This document shows, piece by piece, positions 1,792-57,495 of a stretch of 64,000 nucleotides of DNA; the stretch's first letter is position 1, and every line of letters starts with the position of its first letter. The stretch is taken from assembly GCA_030062745.1 (NCBI GenBank), contig CP099846.1, positions 5,704,001 to 5,768,000 of the forward strand, given 5' to 3'. The notes under the pieces are model-generated. The model ran no database searches and was not told the origin of the DNA. It was given only the letters and a program-made list of their open reading frames with translations. A program made the translations under genes and the position numbers. Source of the DNA: Capitulum mitella (lineage: Eukaryota > Arthropoda > Thecostraca > Pollicipedomorpha > Pollicipedidae).

Positions 1792-4112
1792 TAGGGATGC
1801 ACAAGATCGGGATTTCTGTGATTCTGCCGAATGCTAGATATGCCGGATATCCGTCTGGACATCCGGCCGGATACCACATATTATGCTCCCCTATCATTAT
1901 TTACTATGTTTAATGATAAATGCAACAAAAAAGTTTAACCCTATTCCCGGAGGGCTAGACGGTATGGCCGATTCCCGGCAGGGGGGGGGCGGATTCGGCC
2001 CCCCCCCTGAGATCTCGAGAACTACTTGTCCGATTTCATCGCAACAAACGGCAATCGATTTGCCGTCACGTGAACTACATTTTTATAAAAAGAAATTCTC
2101 AAAATTTTGAAATTTGTGGATACGGGGGGGCAAAAATGTCAAAATGGGGGGTACTTTTTGACTTCTTATAACTCCGTTGTTTATGGACCGATTTCGATGA
2201 AACTGGCATCAATCGAGAGATTATGGATAGGGCTTTTACCATGGGTATGCAAATTTGAAATTTTGAGAAAATTCATGGGCGTTCACAGGGTTTCAAAAAT
2301 AGGGGGATTAGTTTTCTAATAACGGAATGAGCAAAAGAGGCCAAAACACTTTTTTAGCTTCTGCTAGTCATGTTATGCTAAAGAAGTACAAATCGCATTA
2401 CATTGTTTGTATAATGTTAGTATAGGCGGTGCCAGGGACATAAAAAAGGGGGAACTGTCATGGTCACACGTTCTTCAGATCAACTTGTGACCTTTGACCT
2501 TAAATGACCTCCAGTGACCTTGGGGTCACCTGGAATGATGTCGTGTGCATTCAATATTATTTGTAAACGTTTTTAATCGATTAAATTCACTCTATTCCAA
2601 AAAAATTATTTTTTGGCTTTTGCGATATAGAATACGCGCACTGACATTTTAGGTCATAGCTCCGTGACCCGACCTGATATCATGCTGAAACTTGGTACAC
2701 AAGTAGAGGGCATCTTTCTAAGTCATATATATTCCGGGTTTGGTATTTGAAAAAACTGCACCGACATTATTACGAAAAAACAAATTTTGACTTTTGACCT
2801 TGACCTGACCTTGTAAAGTGACCTCAGATAAACAAAATTACATATGCACATTGCCCAGCTATTTACTATACATTCATATAAAGTTTTAAGTTCCATCTTA
2901 AAAACTCTGTTTTTGGCAGACATTTTCCTTTTACCCTCAACATGGCCAAAAATGACCTGAGGTGCCTCCCAAAAACGTTGCCTGGCTCCGCCCCTGAGCA
3001 AAATAGAATTTCGAAATTTTGTCATGGCGCGTAGAAGGAATAACTAGGAAAAGTGACCAAGTTTCGTGAAGCTGCGGTAAAAAGCCTGGAATTGGCAAGC
3101 AAAAAACCCGATGGGGGGCGGATTCCGCCCCCCCTGCCGGGAATAGGGTTAAATTGAAAAAGGAGGGATCTAAAAAACTGCTAAACACTGAAGAAAATGT
3201 TATCATTGTGAATCATTCACCCAATGCCTACACTTACTGTGAGGTTTCCATAAGTTTCCTTGTACAAAAAAATAAATAAATGTATAGAAATAATAGTCAT
3301 GGCGGAGCACGCCATCTCTAACTGCATTCAAAGGCTGGGTGTAACCACGGTCCAGAAATTAGGGGGGGTTCAAGCTGGCTGCAATCCACCGAGAGCATGT
3401 GGGGGGGGGGGTAAACTGACCTTGTTCGGTCGTTCCATGATAACGTACGATTGAAATTCCTTTGCTGGATTTGAAAGTTCAAGAAGTTCTGTAGCCAAGG
3501 GGAATTATCTATCTGATACTTTAAAAACTAGGGGGACCAATCACCACTTCTGGCAAACTACGTGGGACATGCCCCCTAGCCCCCCCCCCCCACGAAATTA
3601 CACCCATGACAAAGGCTCCAGAATACGCAGAATGCCGTTATAGCGCCTTGGTAAAACTAGAATGCCTGGTTTGATAAGCATTCCATATGAATACTAAGGT
3701 AGGTTGCTTAACGAGTATTGTCCCTTAATGCATTTGTATCAGAGGATTTGAGAAAGATAGATGTCTGAAAAATAAAAAGATAATACACCACCAAATGGGC
3801 TGCTAAGCTCATACTGGCCTTTGTTTCACAGTTTTGAGCTTGAATCCCATTCTTGCAAAATATGTCTCAACCCTCCCAAACTAAGAAGAGAAAGTGGTAC
3901 TCCAGACAAACCTTGAAACTGCTAGTTACATTGACAGCCTAATATTTCAAGGTACATGTCTCCTGAAACGCTTCAGTAGGCAGATATTAGAACAATGTCT
4001 TGATCGTACACCGGGAGGATAAATAACCGGCAACATCTGGCCGGATCACAGAAATAACCGGCCGGATACCGGATAATCTCTAGTATCCGGCCAGGTCTCC
4101 GGTGCATCCCTA
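1792..4112. mobile_element. Non-autonomous hAT element with 8-bp target duplication
   Basis: The left end TAGGGATGCAC and right end GTGCATCCCTA are perfect inverted repeats of the hAT type. They are flanked by TTCACGAC (1784-1791) and TTCACGGC (4113-4120), an 8-bp target duplication with one mismatch, as expected for hAT. Both subterminal regions are rich in CCGGCCGGAT. No transposase frame is present. A separate TTAA element (1935-3152) is inserted near the left end. Without it the element is about 1.1 kb. Confidence 0.85.
1935..3152 (+). mobile_element. Family A TTAA element (piggyBac-like, non-autonomous), young copy
   Basis: Starts TTAACCCTATTCCCGG and ends CCGGGAATAGGGTTAA: a 16-bp perfect inverted terminus with TTAA at both outer ends, the piggyBac target signature. 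Just inside each end is a G-run/C-run palindrome around a GGATTC core. The interior has no credible gene but carries many TGACCT/AGGTCA half-sites. It is nearly identical, in reverse orientation, to 56276-57495, which implies recent activity. It is nested in the hAT element 1792-4112. Confidence 0.88.
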
Positions 4113-4890
4113 TTCACGGCATCAGATAAAACGCGTGACATAAATCAGCGTAAACAGACTATCTAATTGCATAGCACCGTTTATACACCGCCATTATTCA
4201 TTTTCCGAAATGCGTGTTTTCTGTTTTCAGGGGCGGACATTCACGTTGTGGTCGTCGAGGAGGCGCCAGCTGCCGGATGCGTCACCCTCTCAGACGCCGT
4301 CCTGGTGTGAGTGATAGCTCACAGGGTGATCACTCAGCCCATCAGGGCCGCCAGGAGGGAGCCGCTGCTCTTTGTTCAGAGGCTGTCCTGGATGTCCACG
4401 AGTCTGCGAACACTCCCAAAGTGGTTACGAAGCAGGCTGAGTTGTTGGGCCTCGTCGTAAGCCCCAAGTAAGGTGGAACGAGACCTCACAATGTTGTTGA
4501 TGACGCGTTTGTGCGGGAGCTGGCAGTGCTCGTGCCGCCTCCCGTGTGACCACTGCGGCGGCGCGGCGTGTTCTGAGTTTGTCCGGTTGGCTGACAATGG
4601 TACCCCTTGTCCGATGACCGTTTTAAAGGAAAGCACAATGTTCCGAGATTGGCATTTTGCGTAGATGGATGAGCTGGTCCAGTGGTTTTCAGAACCTCGA
4701 ATACACTGGCGAAAAGAGGGGAAAGACTTGAAAAGAGCACCGAATGTAGTACCGACCGTTTAAGGTTCTACAAGAACCTAGCCTGAACCCCTTGAGGGGT
4801 CTTAAGAAAGCGCTGAAAGGCAGTTTCGAGACCATGTAAGGCTCTCATATGCATTCTTTTTTTGTCCGTAAAGATTCTTTTGAAAGAACT
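4113..4890. other. GC-rich exon-like segment, unidentified
   Basis: On the plus strand, a polypyrimidine tract and TTTTCAG at about 4230 are followed by an open hydrophobic frame (ADIHVVVVEEAPAAGCVTLS). It runs into GTGAGT at about 4308, so it looks like a single internal exon. On the minus strand, 4376-4636 is open and ends LVDIQDSL. I recognise neither, and they cannot both be real. Either may be a fragment of an old retroelement. Confidence 0.25.
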
Positions 4891-6153
4891 TTAACCCAAT
4901 TCCCGGCAGGGGGGCTGAATCCGCCCCCCTCGGGTTTTTTGCTTGCCAATTCCGGGCTTTTTAACGCAGCTTCACAAAACTTGGTGACTTTTCCTAGCTA
5001 TTTTTTCCACGTGCGGTGACAAAATTTCAAAATTTTGTTTTGCTCAGGGGCGGAGCCAAGCAACGTTTTTGGGAGGCACCTCAGGCCATTTTTGGCCATG
5101 TTGAGGGTAAAAGGAAAATGTCTGCCAAAAACAGCGTTTTTAAGATAGAACTTAAAACTTTATATGGGTGTATAGCGAAATAGTTGGGCAATGTGCAGAT
5201 ATAATTTTATTTATCTGAGGTCACTTTACAATGTCAGGTCAAGGTCAAAAGCCAAAATTTGGTTTTATTGCAATAATTTCGGTACTGTTTTTTTTTCAAA
5301 TGCCAAACCCGGAATATATATGACGTAAAAAGAACCCTTTACTTGCGTATGAAATTTCAGCTTGATATCAGGCCGTGTCACGGAGCTATAACCTAAAATG
5401 TCAGTGCGCCTACCCTATATCGCAATAGCCATAAAATGAAAGTTTTGAAATAAAGTGAATTCAAATGATTGAAAACGTTTACAGATAATATTAAATGCAC
5501 ACGAGATCATTCCAAGTGACTCCAAAGTCACTGGAGGTCATTTAAGGTCAAAAGTCACAAGTTGATCTAAAGAACGTGTGACCATGACAGTTACCCCTTT
5601 TTCATGTCCCTGGCACCGCCTGTGCTAACATTATACAAACATTGTAATGCGATTTGTACTTCTTTAGCATAACATGACTAGCAGAAGCCAAAAAAGTGTT
5701 TTTGCCTTTTTTGTTCATTCAGTTGTTCATTGTTGTTCATTCAGTTGTTCATTCTCAAGCAGTTTATCAGTTTAAGCAGAAAAGTAATCCTCCTATTTTT
5801 AAACCCCTGTGAACGCCCATGAATTTTCTCAAAATTTCAGACGTTTGTACCAATGGTGAAAGTCCTATCCAAAATCTCTCGATTCATGCCAGTTTTATCA
5901 AAATCGGTCCATAAACAACGGAGTTATAAGAAGCCCAAAAATACCCCTGATTTTGACATTTTTGCCCCCTTGTATCCCCATCTTTTAAAATTTTTAGTCT
6001 TTTGTAAAAATGTAATTCACGTCATGGCCAATCGATTGCCGTTTGTTGCGATGAAATCGGATTTGTACTTCTCGAGATCTGGGGGCGGGGCGAATCCGCC
6101 CCCCCCCTGCCGGGAATCCACCATACCGTCTAGTCCTCCGGGAATAGGGTTAA
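4891..6153 (-). mobile_element. Family A TTAA element, inverted copy
   Basis: Begins TTAACCCAATTCCCGG and ends CCGGGAATAGGGTTAA. The order of internal blocks is reversed relative to 1935-3152, with the GGGGCGGAGCCAAG block at the left and the CTAGACGGTATGG block at the right. It is more diverged than the 1935/56276 pair and has a small GTTCATT duplication near 5720-5750. Confidence 0.85.
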
Positions 6154-24450: not shown

Positions 24451-25669
24451 TTAACCCGCGCCTGACTGTCGATCGGCACCATGCACGCCCGACTGGGGTG
24501 TGCGATTGACCGCCCCCTTCTAACTCACGAACGGTTGGTCGCACGATAAAAATAAGCACACGGTTGGAAAGCTTGTGACGAGTAGACCTCGAAAATGGCC
24601 TCATTTTTAGTTCTGGATAATATGTAAGCCATTTACGCCCTACCTATATTTTCTCAAAGCCGCCTGCATGAGACCGATAAATGGCCTGGATCTCATGGGC
24701 TGTAATTAATGACGTCTTGATAAAGGCACCAGCGGGAAGGTAAAAGTCCGCAGATGCCGATACATGTCTAATTTCTCTGATCTGATGTCTGATCTGATAC
24801 GCGGGAACGTTGACTTAAAGACATGTCGATTTTCGCAACGATGCACGGCGGATGCCGTATACGAACACGGTATAAAATTAACTGGAACTAATTTTAGCGT
24901 TCTTTATTCTTGCGAATTATGCCTTTCCAAATATTGCCTCTTGGTCCTAGTGGTTCTTGTGATGATTTATCTTGCTGAAATGTTGAACAATTCAGTAGTT
25001 AACAATCTACGCAACTGTTGGAGCTTTATTGTCGGGAGCCTGTTTCTCTATAACATTTGCAGTTTTTTAAACTTTTTATTTTTTTTAGTATTACTCGCAA
25101 CTGTGCGTGCCAATTTTACCATTTTCTACCCAATCTGAGTCATTCCTCGCCGATTTTAATGGCAGTGCATTTTAACTCATGACGGTTACTTGTGACCTGA
25201 CCTCAGGTCGGTGCTTGGAGGCCACTGAAATTGTGCCCATTGACGGCAAATGGATGTCTGGATCTCCCCACACTCAAACTGTTATAAAAAGATCCGTCAA
25301 TTTTCGAAAAAAATTACATGCACTGAAAACGGGCTTGACCTTAGGTCAATGACTCAGACTTTCCCGGAAAATCAGAAATAGCGGATTTGTTGTATTTATC
25401 AAAATGTCTAGTCCTTGAAAGTTTTATTGTAATATCATGTTCGCGAAAAAGTTACAGGGCGTTAAACCTTTCTGGACATAGGTCCATTTGACCTGACCTA
25501 GGTTAGACACCTTATTTGACTTTAGGTCAAAAATTTTGTACAAGATGTAAAAATGGTCAAGCAAAAGATAGACAAAGTGTCGTGGCGCTGCGTTTGTTCG
25601 TTCTCTGGCAATCTCTGAAAAATCTCAGGGGGGAGGTCAACGGCCTCCCCCAAGTCGGGGTCGGGTTAA
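24451..25669 (-). mobile_element. Family B TTAA element
   Basis: Starts TTAACCCGCGC and ends GTCGGGGTCGGGTTAA, with TTAA at both ends. The left part is the reverse complement of the right part of the copy at 31977-33206: CCGTTCGTGAGTTAG, AAGCTTTCCAACGG and CTCATTTTTAG blocks. Many TGACCT/AGGTCA half-sites lie in the right third. No gene. Confidence 0.82.
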
Positions 25670-29980: not shown

Positions 29981-31660
29981 TCAAACTCTTCCGAAAACCG
30001 TCAACTTTTTCAGTGCATGATTTTCCACAAACTCACGCAGGATGACCTTGAGATCCAGCCTTCTTGCGTGATCGCCGTGCATGGCGAGGACGATCAGGTT
30101 TGGTAGCCTCCCCTGGCTCATCATGGATCGCAACGGCGTCTTGATCCGGTACAAGGTGCTGATCGAACTTTTCGCCGTTGCACCACCCATGGAAACGGCC
30201 ATGATCAGCGCTGCCAGACGCAGCACATCCGATAGCATTTCTTGGCACAAGCGACCCTGGCTCATGTGACGTCCACAACATGGCTGATCGAGTTAGCTGG
30301 CTGCAGCACTGTGGCACATCGGCGCATGGAGGTCAGCTGCATGGACAGAGCATCAGGGTCGATGTCTCCTGAGCTATCCTGGTGGACGTTGTTTTGCGAT
30401 GACGTAAAAACTTTCCTGGCATTGCCAGGGCTGATGTTCGCTCGACTCCCTAGCAGCAGGTCCTCTAGCTGCTCCAGACGTTCCAGATCAGGCTGCTTGA
30501 ACCGCCGCCTGACTTCATTTGTTACCAGGTCCATCGCTTCGAAGAAGCAGCGTCTGAGCAAGTCTTTGGCGGTGAAGACCGTTGGCGCTGCTGTATTTGC
30601 ATGGTGCTCCAGTCGCTTAGGCGGGCGGACTGGACGTGGGTCCTTTGCTGGGTCGACGGGGCTGCCAAGTGTCCGAGTACTGTCGTGGCGTTCTTCCCAC
30701 AGCTCTTCAAAGCCGAACTCTCGCAGATTTTCCAGCGTGCTGAGCAGCATCGTAGCCCCCTTACGGACATCTCCTCAGCTGACCCCAGGGCGCTGCAAAG
30801 CCTTCCCAAAAAACTCACATGAGCGAACATCCGCTCACACATCATCAGAGATAGTGCCGTCTCAAAGCTCCGGAGATAAGAGACAATGCCTCGCACTCTG
30901 TGACGGACATCCGGCGACGCGGACTTGTCTGCTTCCATATCTTTCAGTGTCAAAAGAATTGTATCATATTCCTTAAGAAATCGTCTGAAGGCCAGGCATC
31001 TCACTGTCCATCTGGTGGGACAGAGAGATATGAGCTTGTGCGGTGTGGTACGTTGCAGTCCCGCGTCGTCTTCGTCGTGTTGCAGGCGCAGATCGAGAAG
31101 ATGGTCCTCAAACAGCTGCTTCCTTTTCGTGGTCTCGAGTACTCCCACCACATCCCGAACTGAGTGTTCAGAGCATCACCAACCTGGGACACCTCGCTGG
31201 CCTCTTCCACGAGGGCCAGGTCGAGGGAATGATTTGCGCAGAGCACGAATATTAAGCGGAGCTGATCTTCGGTTAACCTGGCCTGCACTCTGGACACTTT
31301 TCCCGACATGGTCGATGCTCCATCGAAATAATGCCCTCTTAGCTTGTCCATTTGCTATCCAATTGCTCCTTTTCTGCAGCCACGATTTCATCTCGGGGTT
31401 GTCATGCTTCTTTCGTCTAGCATGGTCATTAAATTCCTTAAACATGATCACCTTCATCGTCGCAACTCAAGAATGGGTATTCTTTGTACCATTGACAGCG
31501 AAACCTTCGGCCGTTGGTTTCTGGAAACGGCGCATGCGTTGGCTGATGAGGTTCTGAGAAGGACCAAAAGCAAGGGTCAGGATAAATAGAAAACGTCGAA
31601 GGACCAGGATAAGGACAGTGTCCTTTGCGCTCATTCACGGAGTTTTGTGCGCAGTTCATC
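29981..31660 (-). pseudogene. hAT transposase, ZMYM1/TTF-type (broken)
   Basis: Read on the minus strand, the head has the TTF-type zinc-finger entry (FPETNGRRFRCQWYKEYPFL, about 31520-31460). The hAT catalytic core follows: RGHYFDGASTMSGKVSRVQA at about 31350 and CANHSLDLALVE. Next come LCPTRWTVRCLAFRRFLKEY, then ALSLMMCERMF. The C-terminal dimerisation region has LAALIMAVSMGGATAKSSIS, RIKTPLRSMMSQGRL and LDLKVILREF (about 30230-30010). The N-terminal finger and catalytic core are closer together than usual, suggesting a deletion, and at least three frame changes occur. Terminal inverted repeats were not found. Confidence 0.82.
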
Positions 31661-31976: not shown

Positions 31977-33206
31977 TTAACCCGTCCCGACTGGGAGGGC
32001 AGTTGACTGCCCCCCCCCCCCGAGGTTTTTCTGGGATTGCGAGAGAACGAACAAACCAGAGTCACGAAAATTTGTGTACCTTTTGCTTCATCAATTTTAC
32101 ATCTCGTGTCAAGATTTTGACCTCAGGTCAGGTCAGGTGCCTGACCTAGGTCAGGTCAAACAGATCTATGTCCAAAAAAGTTTAACGCCCTCTAACTTTT
32201 TCGCAAAACAAGATATCTCAACAATACTTTCAGGGATCAGTGAACGTGATAGATGCAACAAATCTGCTACCTCAGATTTTTTGCAATTTTCGGGGTCGTT
32301 GACCTAAGACCAAACCCATTTTTAACACATATCGTCGTTTTTGTCGGAAATTGATGGAATTTTTCATAACATTTTTAGTATGGAGTGAAGCAGACATCTA
32401 GTTACCGTCATTGGGCAAAATATCAATGACTTCCACCCATTGACCTGAGGTCAGGTCACGAATGACTGTAGTCAACCAAAATGTACAACCGTCAAAATCA
32501 TCGATAAATTTCTCAGAATGGGTAGAAAATGGCAGAACTAGCTTGCACAGACGTAAGTAATACCAGGAACTTCAAAAAGTTTGAAAAAAAATTCATGTTT
32601 TCAAAATAAAAAGGCTCTCGCGAATAAAGCTCCGCTAATTTTGTAGATTGTTAACTAATACATTTTTCCAAAATTTAAGCATAAAAAACCATCACAAGAA
32701 CCTCTAAGATCAGTAAAATATACAAAGATTGTCTTTTTTCGCAAAAATAAAGGAACGCTAAAATTAGTTCCCTCAATTTGTTACTGCATACGGCAGCAGC
32801 GCACGCCTACAGCTGCCGCTAGAAATGCCGTGTCTTTAACTCAACGTTTCGGCGTATATATTGAAGAAATCTGGGGAAATTAGACGTGTATCGGCATCTG
32901 CGGACCTTTACTTGTTTGCCGGTGCCGTTACCTAAGCGTTTTCAGTCACAACCCTTGAGATTCAGGCCATTTCTCGGTCTCATGCAGTCGGCTATGAGAA
33001 AACATATATATAGGGCGTAAATTGCCTGCGTATTATTTAAAACTAAAAATGAGACCAGTTTCGAGCTCCACTCGTCACAAGCTTTCCAACGGTTTGCTTA
33101 TTTTTATCGCGCGACCAGCCGTTCGTGAGTTAGAGGGGGGGCAGCAAACTGCCCCCCCCCCCAGTCGCCCATGTTCGAAACGGACCGACGGTCGTGCGCG
33201 GGTTAA
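31977..33206 (+). mobile_element. Family B TTAA element, full-length
   Basis: Starts TTAACCCGTCCCGACTGGG and ends CGTGCGCGGGTTAA, with TTAA at both ends. Subterminal G/C-run palindromes are GGGCAGTTGACTGCCC at the left and GGGGGGCAGCAAACTGCCCC at the right. Inside the left end is a dense cluster of AGGTCA half-sites (about 32118-32160, with CCTGACCTAGGTCAGG as a palindrome). No gene. Confidence 0.87.
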
Positions 33207-35232: not shown

Positions 35233-36535
35233 TTAACCCCCGCAGTGGAAGGGCGTTTCGCACTAACGCACACTGGAAGGGGTTCTAAAAGTGCCCCCGC
35301 TCCGATTTTGGAAACGGAAAGAGCTAGAGACATCAGTTTTTTTGAACATGGTAGGGCGATAGGGATTTACATTGTGTGCAATTTTCACGACCCTAGTTTG
35401 ATATCTTCAAGGTCAAATGAGGTTGAAAAGTACACCTTAGACACTTTCTCGGCCGTACAACTTTTCGAGCGAAACGGTAAAAGGATGTACGTTTCGCCGT
35501 TGAAACGCAGATTACGACAACTTCGATTCATCTGGCGTCTTGACTGAGCATTTTGGGTCGAGGTAATGTCAGGTCATTGACCTATGGCGTCATTTTTTAT
35601 CTTTTGCACATCAGATTCGAACAACACGGACAGTTTGAGAGTAAATAAGGGCGCAACATCTATCTTTTGGCGTATTTGCAGTGAAGGTTTCCAACATCGG
35701 TACATTTGGTCACTTCCAGCGTTTATATTTATGTATGTACTCGTATGTGTATGTGTATATGTATATACATGTGAGTATCAATGTGCCAAAAGTGTTTTAG
35801 TAGGGTCTTTGAATGCATATTTCATACAAATCGACATATTGCAAAGCCAGTCTGAACCAGATCACATAAACAATTGCCTTGACCTGAAATGACTCTGGTA
35901 TATATGTATGCATATTCATGTGCGCACACGTGTTTTTATTCGGGTCTTTGAATCCACATTTCATACAAATCGATATGTCGCAGAACAAATCTAGACCAGG
36001 TCACAAGATATTTGACCTTGACCTTTAATGGCCCTGACCTTCGCTGACCTTGGTACATGTAAGAGTATCAGTGTGCGCACACCTGTTTTTATTAGGGGCT
36101 CTGAATGCATATTTCATACATACTGACATGTTGTAACGCAAATCTGGACCACGTCACAAGCTGTTTGACCTTGACCTTAGATGATCTTGACACTTACTGA
36201 CCCTGGCTATGGTCCTGGTACATCCATCACTTATGCCCGAATGACATTGCCTGATTGTGTTCACACGGTAATCTTAAGTAGAACGCTGGTCTTTCACAAA
36301 ACTCTCATTTGTCAGCGACAACCGTCGCTTTCGTCATGCTTGCCGGACTTCAAATGCTTGAAACTTCAGAAATTTTCGGCCTATTTCCGATTTTTTTTTG
36401 CGTCATTCGACGAGTTATACAATTGCCATAAATGTCACAAAGTAGCAGCAACCAGCTCCCATCCGTTCTCGAGACATTCAGGAAAAACAGGGGGGGGGGG
36501 GGCACAGGAAGGCCCCCGTCCAGTGCGCGTGTTAA
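35233..36535. mobile_element. Family C TTAA element
   Basis: Starts TTAACCCCCGCAGTGGAAGG and ends CCAGTGCGCGTGTTAA; TTAA lies at both ends with a partial inverted match (CACTGG/CCAGTG). The right subterminus has a long G-run and GGCCCCC. Internally, about 35765-36205 holds three ~150-bp direct repeats, each with TTTCATACA and CTTGACCT-type half-sites. Its right TTAA is also the left TTAA of the next element. Confidence 0.72.
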
Positions 36536-36942: not shown

Positions 36943-37173
36943 AAAGGCACTGGTACCTTTCCGTCGCGCACCTTCTCGGTTTTTCTGTCTGTCTTCGCTC
37001 TTCAGGGCTTACTGCACACATTGAAATAATTTGTCCTCTTCGAACTGAAGCTTTCTCCCCGCTTCCGAAAACTGTTCAAAATTTGAAATCCATACTCACG
37101 CTCAAATACTTCGTCTGTATATGGTTCTCTCACTGTCTACTGCTTCTTTATCGCAGCTCAGTATTCGCTATAT

Positions 37174-37763
37174 GGGTCATTCCACGCCAACTCAACCAAT
37201 AAAAGTGCGATTTTACACGGCACCCCCTCAGATTTTTACGGCATTAAGTCCTATGGGGTTCTTCATAGCCCGGATCCCGAATATCGGGTCGAAATCGCCC
37301 TCAAGCAAATAGTTTGGTTGCTACAGTGACGTCAGTTTATGACGTCACACAGTGTTTAGCAATCTTTGAAGCGTTGTATCTCCGAAAGTTGATGAGATAT
37401 CTCAAATCGGTGTTCAGTATTTCAGAGACAATTGTTTGACATTTTATTTGTGCACCAGTTTTGTATTTTCGACTTCTTAAAAATATATTATGTTATCGAT
37501 TAAAAAATATAAAGTTAAATTTCAACACTTATGTGGTCTTCGATTTTCTTGAAAATGAGATATATGAAATCTGCACGTTTTTTTACCCTGGAACCGTCGA
37601 GAAAATAATGGGTATCGCATAACAACATATCCTAACGTCCCGCGTTCTCCTGTGGCTTCTCGCCAGACACTCGCCGGAGCGCCGCGCCGATCACCGCGTC
37701 ACTAAGGTGGCGCTCGGCGCGGCCGCGGCGGCCGAATGGGAGTGGAGCCTGGGGGGAGGGGAG
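37174..37763 (+). repeat. Left terminal inverted repeat of the long-TIR element
   Basis: It matches the right repeat in order. Shared blocks include TCAGATTTT, GACCCGATATTCGGGAT, TGACGTCA-type sites, CTCCGAAAGTTGATGAGATA, ATATATGAAATCTGCA and GGGTATCGCATAACA, then the GC-rich GGAGCGCCGCGCCGAT and GGTGGCGCTCGGCGCGGCCG. Base composition switches sharply from AT-rich outer to GC-rich inner sequence. Confidence 0.92.
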
Positions 37764-38074
37764 TTGTCGCCGTCTTGTTTATGATCACCCCTTTGACCAT
37801 GATTGCTTTGGAATGTAAGGAGTTGACAAATTGTGTGAATATTGGATGTAGACCAACGTGGACCGTTTTACCACTAGACATCGCTCCGCCTGCCCTAAAA
37901 TGAATTACTAAGCGATGTTTGACAAAGTTCACTGTGTGTTGATCACTGTATTCTGACAAGCATGCGCACGTCGACTGAAAAAATTATCATGACATGGGTA
38001 CCGCACAGACACGATCTTCCTGTCGCATTACCTCACTGTTACGAACAGAGAACTGACGTATCCACATCATTCCA

Positions 38075-41000
38075 TCACACGGTCTGAAACCTTCGGCTCG
38101 AGATGCTTGCCGATGTTTTGTATGCGTCCACCGTTGTTGAATTGACAGGCCTAAAGCAGCGAAATCCCCTGGTGCCTTTGATTTGTCTGGCTTCATCAAA
38201 TCTACTCTTCAGCTTGGAGTCCTTTTTGGCTATGTCGGGCTCCGAGACGAAGAAGTAGAAGAAGTGAATGCCTAGAACAAATATTATTCACAGCTCTTAG
38301 TAGCCTATTAATATTTCCAAATCCAACAATGCACGAACTTAGTCAGCAGCTATTATCGGTTACGCAGTACAGTATCGGAGAATACAGCTGTCCAAAAAAT
38401 GTTAAAAATTTCTGCTGAATCGCAAAGTTATCTGACTATAGGTCAATTGATTTACTGAGATTACACCTTTTGTAGCTTAATGTTTTTGCAAGTTTTTCCT
38501 ATAAGACATTATCACTAAAATATCGATGAAATCAATGTGAGATTGTTCAGGCTTAAAGAAAACAACATTTGCAGTATAGAATGTTATTCATTGTGTCTTA
38601 CCATGCACTGAGGTTTTGCAGAAGAGGAACATGGCCTCCGGCGTGCAGATCTGGTCTGCCTCTGGTCTTTGCAGGCCGGCACGAGCTGTGAGTCTTTTTG
38701 TGGTGCCACCGATGCCGTCACATGGCCCTTTGCCGTGACAGATGGCAAAGAAATGCCACTCACACTCTATCCCGAAGTCTTCTTTGTGCATGGTCATGTT
38801 CCTGATATTAAATTTGTTCTTGTACTGTGAGACGGCACCGTCGGTAAAGTAGTGAACTTTGCGTACGACTGGGTGTCGAGATTTGACGCTCTCCAACACT
38901 TCACATTGGAACGCAAAAACAGCTTGTGTACTGTGTTTCAGGCTGTCACTTATTATACAGTAACTATCACGATGCACTTCGTCGCCAGATTTCGTATACA
39001 CTACGAAAGGGTGTACGGTCGCTTGGGCATTTTGCCAATAAAATCCCTGAATTGCGTCTTGTACGACGAAAGAGTAATTTTCAGCAAAATCACCCATAAC
39101 TATCGCCTCTTGGGCGGTTAGCCTGCCTTTCAGCTCCTTTAGATGAGTGTTTTGTGCTTGTGCAATGTAGTGATGGGGCCGAAGTCGTGCGATAGAGCTT
39201 ACTAAGGTGTCTATAAACTCGTCCCTGGTTTGTCGTACAGAGGCAAGAGTTGTTCGATCTGTGCTCAACCACTGCTTGTATTCTACTTCCTCTACGCCCA
39301 AGGCCTCTTCCTCGTCTAAGAATGTTCGAAGTTTCCCGTCCCCGGGACATTCCTTACATTTGCCAAGCATGCACGTTTCTCTCTGAAGACCGCAAACTGT
39401 CATTTTCATGAGGTCGTCAGCGCTAAGATCTGGGCGTACTGACTTTAGCATGAGTTTTGGATTTTGATGGTGGACGCAAATGCATACAGAATGCGTGCCA
39501 CTTGCTCCTGCCAAAACGCAACATGGCGGCCTGAGGCTGGCAAATACTGAAAATCCTACGGGCTCTGCAGTTTCAGATTTATACTGTTGGTAAATTTCTC
39601 GTATATTTGAAAGCACCAGACGTTTCTGGTGGTGACGTTTTTCCCCATCAGGATCACGTACGCTGACCGTGTCTTTTTGGCCAGGACACAACCTGCTAAT
39701 ATCGTCCCGTTCATAAAACTGTTGGACTTTTTTCTTTTTCTCGTCTGAAACGGTAAACGACGGCTTCTTTGGACCTGGCTTGGCCATTACACCTTTCGCT
39801 GCCTTTAGCGCTCGACTTCGTTTCACCATATGAATGGTGGCGCCAAACCTCTCGGCTGTTTTTTCGATCGTGAACGGTGATAATGTCAGAATTTGGAGCT
39901 TGGTTGCTATGAAGATGTAGGATGATTGAATTTATCAACCAGCTCAGTCATCATTTTTTCGTACAACTCTATGTTTGGAACCGCCTCGTCGCCTCTGGAC
40001 TTTTCTTGGTCAGAATCGACTTCAGTACCATATGAAGCTGATAGACGTTTTGCCACCGCAGTTTTCACAGATGCTAGTTTGCTTCAGCCTTTCTGTTTCC
40101 TTTGGTGCGCTTTCAGCCCGCCTGAAACAAAAGAGAGAAGGGTTCTTTTCTAAACACTTCTAAACCGACTGTACATGTTTTGAGACTCCTTTCAAAAGAT
40201 TCGATTTTCTACATGTCCATTATCAAATAACACCTGATGCGGAACCTATATAACGTACAGAATGCTAAAGATGTTCTAGCATTCGAGTGGTTTTAAGTCA
40301 AAAACCCCACGGAAAGCGTTAGGAGAAGTGAACTAGTACATCCGCATATTGAGCACCCTATGTGAGGACAGCGTATTTATTCGGACTCTGATACTGTCAG
40401 TACAAAAAAAATCATGCCGTGCTTTCGAGAACGCATGCCCATTTGTTATACGAACAGGGTGAAAGTGATGATTGTTGACATAGAATTGATGCAATACGAC
40501 TTTAAATCGTGCAATTTTAATGATCTTGGAAAATATTCATTCAGGCTAACAAGTGGGAAGTGTTGACAACAGCCACCATTTTAGACTTTCCAGTGCTCTT
40601 AGTTAGGTGTCTACCAAAATAAGCAAAAGTCGCCGCTTGCATGAAGTATGGACATGTTGTACACAAAAACAAGACCGGCATTTCAGTGCGACCCACCTGT
40701 TCGAACGGGTGTTTCACCGAACACGTACATGATTGTATCTAGTTCCTCAGTCGCAATATGTTTCATTGGCGTTCCTTCAGTTTCCGAAGACGACGGCACT
40801 GTTGAAGGGGTAGATGATGAAGCTTCTTTGTCTTCCGGATTCACGTCAGGGACCTTGTCTCTTGTTGCTTGCTGGCCAGATGGACCTGGCTGTGGTTCGT
40901 CATGTCCACGGGCGTCAGAGTCTCTTTTAGGAATTAGTTTCCTGTTTAGACACACTTTATCGCCAGGTGATAGAATGTCGTGTAACGACTTGTGAGCTTT

Positions 41001-41246
41001 GATGAATGATGCCGACACCGGTCTAACAGAGCTATAAAACTTTTTACTATGGGGCAAGCCGAAAGGATTTGAGCAGAGTTTTTGCTTTTCTCTGTAACTG
41101 GACTTCATTTCACACCAATGCACTCTCGCGAATGAAACACAAAGGTCCGTCGCCAGAGCCTCACTGCACACGACTGTCGGTGTTCTACAACTGCATGCGT
41201 AATGGGAGACATCGTCGCTTCAGATGGTAGACCGACACTTGAGCAT
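38075..41246 (-). pseudogene. Putative transposase of the long-TIR element, three exons, interrupted
   Basis: Proposed minus-strand model: exon 1 41246-40697 (ATG at 41246; donor CAG|GTGGGT), exon 2 40121-38602 (acceptor TTTGTTTCAG; donor CATG|GTAAGA), exon 3 38271-38075 (acceptor TTGTTCTAG; stop TGA). Junction phases agree, giving about 755 codons. Exon 1 has a cysteine cluster (HYACSCRTPTVVC) and a PEST-like serine-rich tail. Exon 2 has an HTH-like segment (TIEKTAERFGATIHMVKRS) before the catalytic-looking domain. Exon 3 continues IHFFYFFVSEPDIAKK. Lesions: in-frame TGA at codon 9, in-frame TGA early in exon 2 and a frameshift/TAG near 39905, so this copy is probably inactive or contains assembly errors. 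The protein type recalls uncharacterised proteins common in cnidarians and arthropods. Confidence 0.75.
38588..39829 (-). CDS. Intact 413-codon catalytic-domain ORF (exon 2 of the long-TIR transposase)
   Basis: This is the longest uninterrupted frame in the window. Residues 36-75 include YERDDISRLCPGQKDTVSV and QKRLVLSNIREIY, and 100-125 include CCVLAGASGTHSVCICVHHQ. A cysteine group follows at 145-160 (TVCGLQRETCMLGKCKECPG). The RNase-H-like candidate core has VMGDFAENYSF (Asp246), then VHYFTDGAVSQYKN (Asp329), then HFFAICHGKGPCDGIGGTTK (Asp370), a plausible DDD metal triad by pattern only. The last 13 residues (after SVH) read past the GTAAGA donor at 38601 and are probably intronic. The frame is open upstream of the first Met into IEKTAERFGATIH, so the real protein begins earlier. 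Confidence 0.85.
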   Translation of the reverse strand: MVKRSRALKAAKGVMAKPGPKKPSFTVSDEKKKKVQQFYERDDISRLCPGQKDTVSVRDPDGEKRHHQKRLVLSNIREIYQQYKSETAEPVGFSVFASLRPPCCVLAGASGTHSVCICVHHQNPKLMLKSVRPDLSADDLMKMTVCGLQRETCMLGKCKECPGDGKLRTFLDEEEALGVEEVEYKQWLSTDRTTLASVRQTRDEFIDTLVSSIARLRPHHYIAQAQNTHLKELKGRLTAQEAIVMGDFAENYSFVVQDAIQGFYWQNAQATVHPFVVYTKSGDEVHRDSYCIISDSLKHSTQAVFAFQCEVLESVKSRHPVVRKVHYFTDGAVSQYKNKFNIRNMTMHKEDFGIECEWHFFAICHGKGPCDGIGGTTKRLTARAGLQRPEADQICTPEAMFLFCKTSVHGKTQ

Positions 41247-41319
41247 TGTCGCTAACAAGACACCTTTGGTTCGTTGTCAGACGATCACGTAGGTGATCTG
41301 TCGCCTCCTCCTCTTCTCC

Positions 41320-41899
41320 TCCCCTCCCCCCACCAGGCTCCGTTCCGACTCGGCCGCCTCGGCCGCGCCGAGCGCCACCTGGATGCCACTATCGGCGCGG
41401 CGCTCCGGCGCGTGTCTGGCGGGACGCCCAAGGAGAACGCGATACGTTAGGATATGATGTTATGCGATACCCATTGTTTTCTCGGCGGTTCCTGGGTAAG
41501 AAAACATGCAGATTTCATATATCTCACTTTCAAGAAAATCGAAAACCACGTAAGTGCTGGAATTTAACTTTGCGTTTTTTATTTGATAATATAATATATC
41601 TTTAAAAAGTCAAAAATATCAAACAAACACACAAATAAAACGTCAGACATTTGTCTCTGAAATGCCGTTGACCGATTTGAAATATCTCATCAACTTTCGG
41701 AGATACACCGCTTCAAAAATTGCTTAACACTGTGTGACGTCATAAATTGACGTCACCGTAGCAGCCAAACTATTTGCTAGAGGGCGATTTCGACCCGATA
41801 TTCGGGATCTGGGCTATGAAGAACCCCTCAGGACTTAATTTCCTAAAAATCTGAGGGGGTGCCGTGTACATCATTGGTTGAGTTGGCATGGAATGATCC
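41320..41899 (-). repeat. Right terminal inverted repeat of the long-TIR element
   Basis: Reverse-complement partner of 37174-37763, with scattered substitutions and small indels throughout. The GC-rich inner part lies about 75 bp upstream of the proposed start codon of the minus-strand gene and may act as its promoter. Confidence 0.92.
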
Positions 41900-41903
41900 A
41901 TAT

Positions 41904-48565: not shown

Positions 48566-50035
48566 AATCTATCTATCTATCTATCTATCTATCTACCTAT
48601 CTATCTACCTATCTATCTATCTAACTATCTATCTGTATATACGTATATATATATATATATGCAATACATATGTATGTACATATATGCGCTTCAGCGGTAT
48701 GTCAGAAAACATAGTATTCATCGTGCTACACATTCACTGCATCCTGTACTCCAGGCCCGCTCGCGTGTGCCGTGTGAGTCCGCGAGGCACCACCGGTTCA
48801 TATTTAACCAACGTAAAATCTATTCTTTTCCGTTCAAAAAAGCAACGCAGGCGAATAGGGTAAGAACACTGCAGCAGCAGACCACTTCGTTGTTACGACA
48901 AGAACTACTCAGCAGGGCCGCGCCGAGCAGCGAGAGCCAGCGGCCGGCCTGCCGACACGGCGCTCCTACCCTGCGTCAGCGCCGTCTCGTCCAGCACCAG
49001 GTGAGTGCTGGAGCTGAGCTGGAGCGCGCCCGACACCAGCACGTTACGCCGGTAGTCCTTCCGCGGCACCAGCGTCATCCGGTTCATGTTGTCGAGGGAG
49101 AGTGGTACCAGCACCGCCTTCTCCGTCAGCCGCTCCAGCAGTCTGAACAGCCGGCCGGCGAACAGGCCGCCGGCGGCCGGCACCGCGGACAGGTTCAGCG
49201 CGAACCTGCCCAACGCCAGGACGTCGTGCCTGGCGTACACGGACGACAGCAGGTGGCAGAGCAGCAGCTCGGCGGCCAGAGTGTCGCCCAGCAGGGCCGT
49301 CTCCAGCACGGTCAGCACCTGGCGGCGAGCGGCGGTCGCCTCGGCTGCGGCCGGCGGCGCCGTCTCCGGCCCGAGCAGCGGGTTGCTGTGCTCCAGCTGG
49401 CGCCAGCCCAGCGCGTGCAGCCGCGGCGTCACCGACGGCGGCGGGTGGTGCACCGCCAGCTCGTCCGCCTCCATGGCGTCCCCGGCATCGGCCGGCACCG
49501 CGACCAACGTCGGGTCCAGCGACAGCACACCCACGAACTCCATCGCGCCGTTCAGCGATAGCTGGTGCTCGTCCTCGTAGATCTTCACCAGGCAGGCCAT
49601 GGCCTCATCGTCCGGGAGCGGCATATTGGTCCCCGGCGGCGACGTCACGGCGGCGGCGGCGGAGTCCGGCCTGCCCCTAGGCGCCGCCGGGTCCTTCCTT
49701 GAACTACTTATCGGCTTTCTCGGCCCCTTTGGCCGCGGCCCCCTCCATTTCTCAGTCGTCCTCCCGAGGCCATCTGGGGGCCGCTGGCGCCGGCCGGGCC
49801 TCGCCGGCATCGGCCCGCTGGGCCAGCGATCGGCATGGCGCACCCATAGCGTGTAGCCTGGCACAAAGACGCAGCGCAGCGTCTGCCGGTCGCCGGTGAC
49901 GGCCAGCGCCGCCTCGAGCCGCTCGTCCGGCCCGCAGCCGACCACGTCCCGGTAGCGGCCGCAGCCGGAGTGCACGGCGCTGCCCGGGCCGCGCACGCCG
50001 TACGCGCAGCCAGGCGTGCGCCGACGCGGCGTTCA
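47328..50035 (-). CDS. MCMBP: MCM complex-binding protein (MCMBP), three exons visible
   Basis: MCMBP binds MCM2-7 subunits in the nucleus and helps their assembly and unloading in DNA replication. Minus-strand exons: about 50035-48970 (donor CAGG|GTAGGA), 48469-48208 (acceptor GGCAG, donor CAG|GTACGG) and 47592-47328 (acceptor CGGCAG). Phases agree. Diagnostic blocks in order: GCGRYRDVVGCGPDE; MACLVKIYED; EFVGVLSLDPTL; LLLCHLLSSVYARHDVLALG; NMNRMTLVPRKDYRRNVLVSG; LVLDETALTQ; MLSEGRSLLPHDC; then the C-terminal DLRQLLVLTRLLSL and WRHARRLEEQRRQRL. All match the family over its C-terminal three quarters. The N-terminal ~100 residues upstream of 50035 are unresolved (frames change between 50035 and 50200; a possible start lies at 50196). 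Codon third positions are strongly G/C. An in-frame TGA at 48411-48413 replaces a Trp conserved in the family. Confidence 0.9.
47593..48010. repeat. Intronic ~55-bp tandem repeat
   Basis: Within the MCMBP intron, about seven units of the form GTCAGGTACCTGCCGAACAC, GGGACAGTCCCCTCA and RATACAGACAYCTGAC are strung head to tail. Each contains a copy of sequence resembling the adjoining splice acceptor plus exon start (GTACCTG read on this strand). From 48040 to 48205 a second, poorer ~50-bp repeat (AATCTGGTGCAGYA) fills the rest of the intron. Confidence 0.8.
48525..48660. repeat. (CTAT)n and (TA)n microsatellite
   Basis: About 26 CTAT units with a few CTAC and CAAT variants, followed by a TA run. 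It lies in the MCMBP intron between 48470 and 48969. Confidence 0.95.
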
Positions 50036-50478: not shown

Positions 50479-51680
50479 TTACCCCTATTCCCGACAGGGG
50501 GCTGAATCCGCCCCTTCGGGCTTTTTGCTTTCCAATGCCAAGGTTTTTGGCGCGACTTCACGAAATTTAGTGACTTTTCCTAACTTTTTTCTACGTAATG
50601 TGACAAGATTTTGAAATTCCACTTTGCTCAGGGGCGGAGCCAGACAACGTTTGTGGGAGGCACCTCAGACCACGTTTGGCCCTGTTGAGAGAAAAACGAA
50701 AATGACTGCCAGAAATAGCTTTTTTAAGAAAGGACTTAAAACGTTGTATGAATGTACAGAGAAATAGTTGGGCTATGTGCACATACGATTTTGTTTGTCT
50801 GAGGTCACTTCACAAGGTCAAGTTGGGGTAATTTTAGTAATTTTTTGGCTTCACAGGAATAATTTTAGCGCTTTTTCTAAAATTCAAAACCCGGAAATTA
50901 TCTGACGTAGAAGGGTGCCCTCTACTTGTGTACCAAGTTTCAAGTCGATATCAGGTCGGTTCACGGAATTAAAATGTCAGTGCGCGTACCCTATATCACA
51001 GCAGCCGTAAAATGAAATTTCGGAAATAGAGTGAATTCAAATGATTGGAAACGTTTTCAGATAATGCTGAATGCGCACGAGATAATTCAAAGTGACTCTA
51101 AGGTCACTAGAGGTCATTTAAGGTCAAAGGTCGGAAGTTGATCTGAAAGACGTGTGACCATGACATTTCCCCTTTTTCATGTCCCTGGCACCGCCTATGG
51201 TTACATTATACAAAGACTGTAATACAATTTGCACTTCTTCAGCCATAAAATGACTAATAGAGGCCAAAAAAGTACTTTTAACTTTTTGTTTATTCGGTTT
51301 CTGAACAATTAATCGCCCCATTTTCAAAACCCTTTGAACGTCTATGGATTTTCTGAAAATTTGAGACGTATGGACCAGCGCTGAAAGTCTCGTTTATAAT
51401 CTCCGATTCATGCCAATTTCGCAAACATTGGTTAATAAACAACGAAGTTATAAGGAATCCAAAAATATTCCCATTTTTGCTTTTTTGCCCTCTGTATCCA
51501 CCCTTTTCAGAATTCTGAGAACTTCTTTTCTTAAAAATGTAGTTTACGTCATGGTAAATCGATTGCCGTTTGTTGTGATGAAATCGGATGTGTGGTTCTC
51601 GAGATCTTAGGGGGCCCGAATCTGCCCCCCCCCCCGCCGGGAATCGACCATACCGTCTAGCCCCCCGGGAATAGGGTTTA
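50479..51680 (-). mobile_element. Family A TTAA element, inverted copy
   Basis: The left end TTACCCCTATTCCCGAC has a mutated TTAA; the right end is CCGGGAATAGGGTTTA. Block order is as in 4891-6153, with GGGGCGGAGCCAGAC at the left and CTAGCCCCCCGGG at the right. The right end lies about 10 bp from the left boundary of the foldback-like element. Confidence 0.82.
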
Positions 51681-51689
51681 GGGATGGGT

Positions 51690-53825
51690 GTCCTGACAAA
51701 ATGGCGAAACGTAAAAATGGCGAATGCTTTTTTGGCGAATGTCAGATGGCAAATGCTGAATGGCCACATGTAAAAATGGCGACTGGCCAAATGGCGAACG
51801 GCAAAATGGCGATATGTGAAAAGGCGACATACCGAAATGGAAAAGGGTCAAGTGGCGAAAGGCAAAATGACGACCTCGAAAAAGGCAACATACCAAAAAG
51901 AAGGGGCAAATGGGAATGACAAAATCGTAGCATTTTTTTTTAGAAAAAATACTCAAATTGTCTGCGTGGATGACTTTGGGATCAGATTAATGTACCTAAG
52001 CCTCAATGAACCTTAACCCTATTTCCGGCAGGGGGCTGAATCCGCCCCCTCGGTTTTTTTGCTTGCCAATTGCAGGGTTTTTGACAGAGCTTCGCGAAAC
52101 TTGGTCACTTTTCCTGCGTATTCTTTCTACGTAGTGTTACGAAACTTCGTAATTTTAATTTCGTAAGAAGCCGAGCCTAGCAAGTTCTTTGGGAGCCACC
52201 TCAAACCATTTTTGGCCCCGTTGAGGGTAAAAGGAAAATGGCTACCAAAAATAGTGTTTTTAAGATAGAACTTAAAACTTGATATAGGTGTATACGTAAG
52301 TAGTTGAGCAAGTATACAAATGCAGTTTTGTTAATCTGAGGTCACTTTTCAAGGTCCGGCCAAGGTTAAAAGTCAAAATTTGGTTCTATAGCAGTAATTC
52401 TGGCGTTATTTTTCCAAACGCCAAACTCGGGATATGTATGACGTGGAATAGTGCCTTTTACTAGTGTACCGGGATTCCGGTTGATATCAGGTCGAGTCAC
52501 GGAGCTGTGACCTAAAATGGCAGTGCTCGTTCCCTATATCATAACAGCCGTAAAATGGAATTTTAGAAATAGCGTGGATTCAAATGATTGGAAACGTTTT
52601 CAAACAATGTGAAATGCACTGAAGACCATTCTAAGTGACTCCAAGGTCAATGGAAATAATTTAAGATGAAACGTCATAAGTTGACCTGATGAACATGTGA
52701 CCATGACAGTTCCCCTTCTTCAAGCCCCTGGCATTGCCTATGTTAAAATTATATAAACAATATAATATGATTTGTATTTCTATAGCAGAACATGGTCAGT
52801 GGAAGCTAGAAGTGTCTTTGACTCTTCTGTCAATTTAGTTTTTTTGAAAAAAATTAATCCTCCCATTTCCAAAGTCCTGTGAACGCCTATGAGCATTCTA
52901 GAAATTTCAAATGTATGGACTAATGGTAAACCTCCCGTCCATAATTGCTCCATTTATGCCAATTTCATCAAAATCGGTCCATAAAGAACAGGCTTATAAC
53001 AAGTCCAAAAATATCCCCATTTTGACTTTTTGCCGCCCTCTGTGTCCATCCCTTTCAAAAGAAAAGTGTACTTAACGCCATGGTATATCAATTTTTTGTA
53101 GGGGAGGGATGGACATTGACAAGGGATGCCAAATGCCGTTCGGTCTTGCTTCTGGCCGCATTGTTAGACCCGAAGAGAGGAGAATTTCCGTAGCAGCCTC
53201 AAACTAACTACATTGGGATGAGGTCTAACATTTGGGTCCCGTGGCATTGGGCTTGGGTCCCGAAGGAGATGAATTGTTATAAAGTGGCCAGCTGGCAACT
53301 GGCTAGAGATATATCACCTGGCACGGTGCGACCGTGTCCATTTATGAAGCGTTCCGCCATTTATTCGGTCGACACTTTTGCATGATTCTTTTTTAACCCA
53401 CTGCCATTTAGACGGACATGTATCCTTTTTCACACGTCGCCAGTTATCCATTCGCCATGTAGCCTGTTGTCATTTTGACATGTTGCCTTTTTCACACGTC
53501 ACCATTTGGCCATTCGTCATTTAGCAATCCGCCATTTTGGCATGTCACCTTTTTGCAAGTCGCCATTCGGCCATTCGTCATTTCGCAGTTCGCCATTTTG
53601 GCATGTCGCTTTTTTACAAGTCGCCATTTAGCCATTCGTCATCTATCAGTTCGCCATTTTGGCACGTCGCCATTTCACGTGTCACCACTTGGCCATCTGC
53701 CATGTGGCCGTTCGTCATTTCAGCATGTCGTCATTTTTATATGTCGCCATATAGCGCCCGCCATCTGGTATTCGCCAAAAAGGCATTTGCCATTTTTGCA
53801 TTTCGCCATTTATCTTAGTACCTAA
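51690..53825. mobile_element. Foldback-like element with tandem-repeat inverted ends
   Basis: The left arm (about 51697-51930) is a string of short units around AAATGGCGAA. The right arm (about 53400-53815) is a string of the reverse complement, TTCGCCATTT. The outermost 30 bp match as an inverted repeat (TGACAAAATGGCGAAACG at the left; read inward from the right, AAGATAAATGGCGAAATG). Inverted ends built of short tandem repeats resemble Drosophila foldback elements. The centre is occupied mainly by a Family A insertion (52013-53085), so the original core is small. The outer limits are approximate, and open frames inside the arms are repeat artefacts. Confidence 0.55.
52013..53085 (-). mobile_element. 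Family A TTAA element, right end lost
   Basis: Starts TTAACCCTATTTCCGGC, followed by the G/C palindrome and the usual interior. It runs to about 53085, where similarity ends inside the block that should precede the right terminus (AACGCCATGGTATATCAAT). The right TTAA and palindrome are missing. Nested between the arms of the foldback-like element. Confidence 0.75.
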
Positions 53826-54749
53826 GGGATGAGTATGTAACTAAAAATTGCGTCGAAGCGTTGTTTAATGCTGGTCAGCAATTTCACCACAATAATGCAA
53901 TGTTGTCTGGCGAGAACACCATCTGCAAAACGTTTTTGTTTTCAATTACAAATAAGCTCCAATAGCACCAGCCTTTTCCTTTTCTTTTCTATCCTTGACT
54001 ATGGCATACCGTCCTCAGGGCACCACCTCGCATATCTACAGAAAACGCACGCTCGTCAAGCTAGTAGCAGATTCATATCAATGTGTAGATTGATGTTCGG
54101 GACTCTTGCGATCTCGCTGAAAATTGACACGTTGATAGAACATAGCATAGGCATCTCAAAACTTCAAAAGCTAACGTGAATATTGAAAACTTTTTGGAAT
54201 ATCAGAGGTCAGAGTTCAGAGCCATTTATGCCGACTTCTTCGATTGAGTTGAAAATTTGTACACTAATAAAGGCTGATCTAAGCATTACAAAACCAGAAC
54301 AGCTAAAGTGGCAACTTTTCACTTTTCGAGATATCAGGAATCAAAGTTATATCATTCTATGGACTGATATTCAAAACTCTCACGATCTGGCTAAAAATTG
54401 GCACATTTCGGCCTTGGCACGTAGGACTTGGCCTATGCATCTCAAAAGTCCAAAAACCAAGGTGGATACTGAAAACTTTTTAAAACATCGGAGGTGAAAG
54501 TTCAAGGACATTCAAGCGAACTTAATAGATTTTTATACATACAATTGTTTAAGATATTTTGGAAGGTTTTTAAGGTCCACCTTAACTATTAGACTTTTAA
54601 AAAGTTTGATCAGCGTGCGAATCTTCAGTCAGATGGTGAGAGTCTTGAATATTAATCTACAGAATGGTAGAACTTTGATCTCTAACATCTCAAAGTGTTA
54701 AATGTCCACCTTGGCTGTTGTGGTCTGAGAATGCTTAGATGAACCTTTG

Positions 54750-55970
54750 TTAATCCGCCCCCGACTGGGGGGGCAGCTGACGCCCCCCCCCCTGAGGTTT
54801 TTCTGGGATTGCGAGATAATGAAGGAACACAGAGCCACGAAACTTTGTGTACCTTTTGTTTCATCATGTTTACAGACTGTGTCAAAGTTTTGACCTCAGG
54901 TCAAGTCAGGTGTCTGACCTAGATCAGGTCAAACGGACTTATGTCCAAAAAAAATTAGCGCCCTGTAACTTTTTTGCAAAACAAGACATCACATTAATAC
55001 TTTCAGGGTTTAGTCATCTTGTTAGATCCAACAAATCTGCTATCTCAGATTTTTCGGAATTTTCGGGGTCATTGACCTAAGGTGAAGCCCATTTCTAAAC
55101 ATGTCGTTTTTTCGGAAATTGACGGAATATTTCACAACATTTTTAGTGTGGAGTGAAGCAGACGTCTAGTTACCATCATTGGGCAAAGTATCGATGACTT
55201 TCCAGCCATTGGCCTGAGGTTAGGCCACGAATAAATGTAGTGAGCCAAAATGTACCACTGTCAAAATCGACGATGAATTACTCAGAATGGGTGGAAAATG
55301 GCAGAACTAGCTTGCACAGACGTAAGTAATACCAATAATAATATAATAAGTAATAGCATATTTTGGAAACAAACAGGCTCTTGACAATGAAGCTCCGTCC
55401 ATTATGCAGATTGGTTACTAAAAAATTTTTCCCAAATTGAAGCATGAAAAACCATCACAAGAACCATGAGGATCCATAAAGTTTACATCGACAGACTTTT
55501 TTGCGAACCTAAAGGAACGCTCAAATTAGTTCCCGTTAACTTCGTACTGCGTACGGCTGCGGGGCACGCCAGCGCAGTAAGAAAATTGCCTTGTCTTTAA
55601 TTCAACGTTTCGGCGTATATATTGAACAAATTCGAGAAATTAGATGTGTATCGGCATTTGTGGATCTTTACTCGTGCGCTGATGCCTTTCCCTATGCGTT
55701 TTCGGTCACAGCCGAAAATTCGAGAGATTCAGGCCATTTCTCGGTCTCATGCAGTCTGCTATGAGAAAACATATATAGGACGTAAATTGCTTACATATTG
55801 TCCAAAACTAAAAATGAGACCAGTTTCGAGCTCTACTCGCCACAAGCTTTCCAACGGTATGCTTATTTTTTATCGTGCGACCAACCGTTCGTGAATCAGG
55901 GGGAGGGCAGCCAACCGCCCTCCCCCAGTGGCGCATGATCGTAACCGACCGACAATCGTGCGCGGGTTAA
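54750..55970 (+). mobile_element. Family B TTAA element, full-length
   Basis: Starts TTAATCCGCCCCCGACTGGG and ends CGTGCGCGGGTTAA. Block order is as in 31977-33206, including CCTGACCTAGATCAGG and the closing GAGACCAGTTTCGAGCTC block. It lies in the tandem array; the flanking array text (AACCTTTG and TGTACAAATTTTTAGCTCAG) joins across the element as in intact units. Confidence 0.88.
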
Positions 55971-56275
55971 TGTACAAATTTTTAGCTCAGTCGGAGACGT
56001 CTGCTTAGATGACCTTGAACTTTGACTGCTGATATTTCAAAAAGTTTTCAATATCCACCTTAACTTTTGAAGTTGTAAGTCTAAACTATGTTCTATCAAC
56101 GTGCCAATTTTCAGCGAGATCGTGAGAGTCTTCAATATCAGTCTACAGAGTAGTATTAATTCGACCTATAGTGTTTCAAAAAGTTAAAAATGTCCACCTT
56201 TGCTTTTGTGGTTTTAGAATGCGTAGGCCAGCCTCTATACGTGTACAGATTTTCAGCTCAAGTGAAGAAGTTTGT

Positions 56276-57495
56276 TTAACCCTATTCCCGGCAGGGGGGG
56301 GGGCGGAATCCGCCCCCCCCTCGGGTTTTTTGCTTGCCAATTCCAGGCTTTTTGACGTAGCTTCACGAAACTTGGTGACTTTTCCTAGCTATTCCTTCTA
56401 CGCGCCGTGACAAAATTTCGAAATTCTATTTTGCTCAGGGGCGGAGCCAGGCAACGTTTTTGGGAGGCACCTCAGGTCATTTTTGGCCATGTTGAGGGTA
56501 AAAGGAAAATGTCTGCCAAAAACAGAGTTTTTAAGATAGAACTTAAAACTTTGTATGAATATATAGCTAAATAGTCGGGCAATGTGCATATGTAATTTTG
56601 TTTATCTGAGGTCATTTTACAAGGTCAGGTGAAGGTCAAAAGTCAAAATTTGTTTTTTCGCTATAATTTCGGCGCCGTTTTTTCAAATGCCAAACCCGGA
56701 ACATATATGACGTCGAAAGATGCCCTCTACTTGTGTACCAAGTTTCAGCTTGATATCAGGTCAGGTCACGGAGCTATGACCTAAAATGGCAGTGCACGTG
56801 CCCTATATCGCAAAAGCCAAAAAATGAATTTTTTGGAATAGAGTGAATTTAATCGATTAAAAACGTTTACAGATAATATTGAATGCACACGACATCATTC
56901 CAGGTGACCCCAAGGTCACTGGAGGTCATTTAAGGTCAAAGGTCACAAGTTGATCTGAGAAACGTGTGACCATGACAGTTCCCCTTTTTCATGTCCCTGG
57001 CACCGCCTATGCTAACATTATACAAACATTGTAATGCGATTTGTATTTCTTTAGCATAACATGACTAGCAGAAGCTAAAAAAGTGTTTTGGCCTCTTTTG
57101 TTCATTCCGTTATTGGAAAATTAATCCCCCTATTTTTGAAACCCTGTGAACGCCCATGAATTTTCTCAAAATTTCAAATTTGCATACCCATGGTAAAAGC
57201 CCTATCCATAATCTCTCGATTGATTCCAGTTTCATCGAAATCGGTCCATAATCAACGGAGTTATAAGAAGTCAAAAAGTACCCCCCATTTTGACATTTTT
57301 GCCCCCCTGTATCCACAAATTTCAAAATTTTGAAAATTTCTTTTTATCAAAATGTAGTTCACGTCACGGCAAATCGATTGCCGTTTGTTGCAATGAAATC
57401 GGATAAGTAGTTCTCGAGATCTCAGGGGGGGGGCCGAATCCGCCCCCCCTGCTGGGAATCGGCCATACCGTCTAGCCCTCCGGGAATAGGGTTAA
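56276..57495 (-). mobile_element. Family A TTAA element, young inverted copy
   Basis: Starts TTAACCCTATTCCCGG and ends CCGGGAATAGGGTTAA. Near-identical to 1935-3152 in reverse orientation. It is flanked by array text GAAGAAGTTTGT and ATGACCTTGAACTTTGA, which are contiguous around a single TTAA in intact array units (for example near 62333). Confidence 0.92.

Follow-up and report, generated by a model that had tools for sequence, protein, structure and literature searches.

The window analysed here comprises 64,000 nucleotides of the genome of Capitulum mitella (contig CP099846.1, forward strand, positions 5704001-5768000). At window positions 37174-41899 lies an element of 4,726 bp, a span that excludes an ATAT at either side, which we interpret below as a probable DNA transposon. 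An initial annotation, made from the sequence alone, had proposed a complete transposon with inverted repeats of about 590 bp around one multi-exon gene and had drawn its borders at 37174 and 41899, and these positions are the ends of the element without the flanking ATAT.

Ends and gene of the element

Three pairs of arms align in inverted orientation (37170-37200 with 41873-41903, 37214-37691 with 41391-41868, and 37705-37759 with 41326-41380). Global alignment of the outer 590 bp of both ends gave 84% identity and a score of 416, compared with a mean of -60 and a maximum of 14 for 92 random inverted segment pairs of the same size from the window, confirming the proposed repeats. The single gene between them is encoded on the minus strand, and reading of the sequence places its GT-AG introns at 40696-40122 and 38601-38272. 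The ends and the gene are arranged as follows.

37170..37173, no strand, left copy of the target-site duplication ATAT
37174..37763, plus, left terminal inverted repeat, about 590 bp, starting GGGTCATTCCA
38075..38271, minus, exon 3, C-terminal, ending in a stop
38602..40121, minus, exon 2, with a helix-turn-helix-like region, Cys/His clusters and a ribonuclease H (RNase H) core; splice sites TTTCAG and CATG-GTAAGA
38603..39907, minus, open stretch of 435 codons within exon 2, used for alignment and fold prediction
40697..41108, minus, exon 1, N-terminal, Ser/Pro-rich, with a CSNPF...VC motif and a donor GT at 40696
41310..41899, minus, right terminal inverted repeat, about 590 bp
41900..41903, no strand, right copy of the target-site duplication ATAT

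Exon 1 was recognised from its open frame and from weak similarity to the N-terminal region of a related protein, P0224 (expectation value (E) 0.034), and its true start may lie further upstream than 41108. Three other relatives (P0002, P0003 and P0020) match exon 2 and, separately, exon 3, where the C-terminal part of P0003 aligns with 38278-38108 (E 2e-7). Exon 2 of the window copy is broken by a TGA near 40085 and by a 1-nt deletion at about 39908, which rule out an uninterrupted frame; because of the deletion, the exon 2 matches fall in two frames. The element is therefore complete in outline, as first described, but this copy is probably not autonomous.

Copies and target sites across the genome

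A search of the genome (477 Mb, 16 contigs) with the left end scored 40 places among 83 candidates, at 89-100% identity and with the window itself included, and the element is present in about 40 or more copies. We read 20 of the 39 other copies in full; for the remaining 19, the reading covered the left end, from about 200 bases outside the element to 60 bases within it. Both ends were kept in 18 of the 20, with 12 copies aligning over their full length without a break, at 94.4-98.1% identity, and six aligning in two pieces as a result of inserts, deletions or other breaks. Two copies (L022 and L025) showed the left end alone within the stretch fetched. Copy L011 has, besides ATAT, a 15-nt direct repeat, ACGAAAGACAGCCGT, outside both ends, with its right copy directly outside and its left copy 7 nt more distant.

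These copies bear on whether a host gene family simply lies by chance between inverted repeats. Broken copies and introns would be compatible with decayed gene duplicates. However, gene and ends recur jointly at sites whose flanking sequences differ, the borders there being identical and accompanied by a duplication, and we regard this explanation as ruled out for practical purposes.

ATAT immediately precedes 34 of the 40 left ends, the exceptions being TATT, ATCT, GTGT, TGGG, GTTC and ATAA. The TGGG exception (L041) results from an indel within the end (...ATATGGGTCATT...), and by eye ATAT precedes GGGTCA in this copy as well. At the right, ATAT immediately follows 23 of 25 ends (18 of 19, with ACAT as the exception, and five of six further ends, with ATAC as the exception). 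Two insertions, L033 and L040, occupy the same position in two copies of one host repeat, either through joint duplication or through insertion at one and the same site. We aligned six uninterrupted copies of this repeat as empty sites, three in the window (24513-24834, 32807-33204 and 55581-55971) and three elsewhere (L015, L016 and L057); four further spanning matches were left out, three of them shorter (L026, L010 and L019) and one from the same place as L015 (L008). All six carry the tetramer once, as ATAT in four, ATAC in L015 and ATAG in the window copy at 24834; in the copy at 32807, two additional bases lie beside it. The empty counterpart of another insertion, L013, at window 35560-35952 best fits a single ATAT, in a TA-rich tract where chance indels are possible.

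Because the empty sites hold one tetramer, ATAT is a 4-bp target-site duplication, and the element itself ends in GGGTCA.../...TGACCC. The same sites rule out ATAT as part of the inverted repeat and a 2-bp duplication of AT. The many copies sharing both ends, together with the duplicated ATAT, bear out the earlier proposal that further copies of this kind would be found. Of the 40 insertions, 16 border on alternating AT runs of at least 12 nt, versus 54 of 433 ATAT positions in the window, the single control, where the 54 sit in few long tracts; this roughly threefold excess over the supply of ATAT suggests a preference for TA microsatellites beyond the ATAT requirement.

Several copies also record the history of the family. 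A frame of the length of the related protein P0001, which stops where exon 2 ends, is open in five of the 20 other copies (L012, L016, L017, L019 and L020). In contrast, the window copy, L010 and L011 have one stop codon and one 1-nt deletion of exon 2 in common. The immediate flanks of these three copies differ, which makes the duplication of any larger segment less likely; in combination with the shared lesions, the differing flanks indicate that this broken sub-lineage was probably mobilised in trans by transposase from other copies. Across the core, the mean pairwise ratio of nonsynonymous to synonymous substitution rates was 0.51 (66 pairs from 12 copies including the window copy, three of which, L009, L023 and L026, contain stops), a value compatible with a mixture of constraint on source copies and post-insertion decay.

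The encoded protein and its relatives

The initial annotation had picked out three aspartate motifs and cysteine clusters in the gene product, and both are present, the latter as Cys/His clusters that probably bind zinc. It had numbered the aspartates Asp246, Asp329 and Asp370; the residues are there, but the numbering is one too low, and counted from the Met at 39829 they are 247, 330 and 371. They are spaced D-82-D-40-D, each is kept in at least 231 of 235 aligned sequences, and in the 435-residue stretch they fall as follows.

39089..39091, minus, first catalytic Asp, D273 in GDFAEN; D in 234 of 235 sequences, directly after strand 267-272 of the model
38840..38842, minus, second catalytic Asp, D356 in FTDGAVSQYKN; D in 235 of 235, directly after strand 350-355
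38717..38719, minus, third catalytic Asp, D397 in GKGPCDGIGG; D in 231 of 235 (three gaps, one Ser), at the start of helix 395-412

The predicted fold is an RNase H core with the three aspartates at the catalytic positions, as had been anticipated, and the protein is very probably a DDD transposase. In a structure comparison with VIA-align, the best matches of this model were integrases, with 7-14% identity over the aligned part among the 50 entries listed. Retroviral integrase and Mos1 mariner catalytic cores fall in this range, and their ends differ from those of the element; Mos1 duplicates TA, whereas the element duplicates ATAT. Neither piggyBac nor hAT nor RAG was among the 50 entries listed, which excludes none of them.

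The integrase matches, the RNase H core and the 4-bp duplication would all suit an element of the Ginger, piggyBac or Kolobok type, groups that also make duplications of about 4 bp. Kolobok elements target TTAA. The same target is given for piggyBac in PMC7351741, and Ginger1 leaves 4 bp according to PMC10045372. However, the target here is ATAT rather than TTAA, none of the six left-end exceptions is TTAA, and the Pfam matches listed (25 of 36 families) include no model of an integrase or transposase. We therefore consider such an origin highly improbable.

Related proteins are widespread in animals, and most of the named records listed label them uncharacterised, as the initial annotation had stated for invertebrates. 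Among the named organisms that carry such a protein are Hydra, a fish and a frog, and Hydra vulgaris LOC124809907 (P0182) belongs to the same protein family, with 42% identity over the core. A C-terminal extension is present in 11 of the 14 relatives listed, as judged by eye. The window gene terminates ahead of this extension, as do two near relatives, P0002 and P0003, and P0001 stops where exon 2 ends (also by eye).

No Pfam model matches the stretch from the window copy, and among the 36 Pfam families with a match at E <= 0.1 none is found in more than three of the 83 members searched; in NCBIfam, no match above the cut-off was found for the four members searched. Single weak matches in Pfam, NCBIfam or the PDB searched by sequence, such as DUF1539 (E 0.00038, in one of 83 members) and centromere protein U (E 0.035), look like chance. 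One relative, P0181, has a Lipocalin match outside the core (E 1.8e-5), which probably reflects a gene fusion. In public records, both P0181 and P0208 (Nymphon striatum) carry the name ARL14 effector protein; they are probably misannotated transposase genes. Another relative, P0128, was deposited under a Sedimenticola metagenome bin and is probably host-animal DNA in a symbiont bin. No prokaryote or viral relative was confirmed with short peptide patterns (three in genome contigs, two in viral contigs).

Probable assignment to Sola and significance

Among named groups, the Sola superfamily fits best. The description of Sola in PMC10741241 gives a DDD transposase, a 4-bp duplication, a length of 2-9 kb and terminal inverted repeats of 11-1124 bp. 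The element agrees with this description in its conserved DDD triad, in its 4-bp target-site duplication, and in its length of 4,726 bp and repeats of about 590 bp, which lie inside both ranges. Sola1-3 are listed as one superfamily in PMC4455052, and in PMC10294476 the Sola1 consensus sequences curated for bivalves have a mean length of 5,445 bp. We conclude, with a probability of roughly three in four, that the element is a DDD cut-and-paste DNA transposon of about 4.73 kb for which Sola is the best-fitting named group. It probably belongs to Sola, a membership that rests on features rather than on sequence comparison with Sola references.

Several observations would suit a DDD transposon of an unnamed superfamily outside Sola, with the same mechanism and a separate lineage. 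These are the Pfam and NCBIfam results given above, the lack of a match for six motif words of the protein in the papers searched, and, as a mild point against Sola, the missing confirmation of prokaryote relatives, since Sola has been described from bacteria too. A search of the same literature with phrases for Sola transposase also gave no match. The letters of the element ends are present in 88 papers, of which the 20 listed concern unrelated subjects; these matches look like chance, perhaps primers. However, ends, size, duplication and triad all fit what PMC10741241 says of Sola, and Repbase would be unlikely to have missed a family so common in Hydra and other animals. An unnamed superfamily is thus unlikely, though it is the less improbable of the other transposon readings. 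Slightly more doubtful again is its fuller form, a DDD lineage outside the named superfamilies that occurs in cnidarians, arthropods, echinoderms, fish and frogs and targets ATAT with a roughly threefold excess in TA microsatellites. The initial annotation had inferred transposases of a distinct DDE/D-like superfamily. Its first part is upheld by the RNase H core, the triad, the shared ends and the duplication, whereas an undescribed superfamily is not supported: all testable features fit the description of Sola.

The element would move by cut and paste, excision included. Its transposase, with an N-terminal helix-turn-helix-like region, conserved Cys/His clusters and an RNase H core bearing the DDD triad, most likely binds the long inverted ends and would cut at GGGTCA.../...TGACCC. 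The protein would then join them to target DNA cut with a 4-bp stagger at ATAT, in many cases within TA repeats, and gap repair would duplicate ATAT.

Elsewhere in the window, 48905-50032 (minus strand) encodes part of an MCM-binding protein (Pfam MCM_bind, E 2.4e-86). An open frame at 30522-31175 (minus strand) has no Pfam match; it may be a fragment of a hAT/ZMYM1-type protein. Repeats that are related to each other and up to 97% alike lie in both orientations at 1983-6087 and 50508-57449.

A protein family that is labelled uncharacterised in the genomes of many animals and has no fitting Pfam model is here indicated to be a DDD transposase, and gene catalogues could therefore mark it as mobile DNA. 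The exact ends, the ATAT target with its empty sites, the copies with open frames and the broken sub-lineage probably moved in trans make the activity of the element testable. If the element is indeed Sola, the main result would be the link between an unnamed protein family and a named transposon group.
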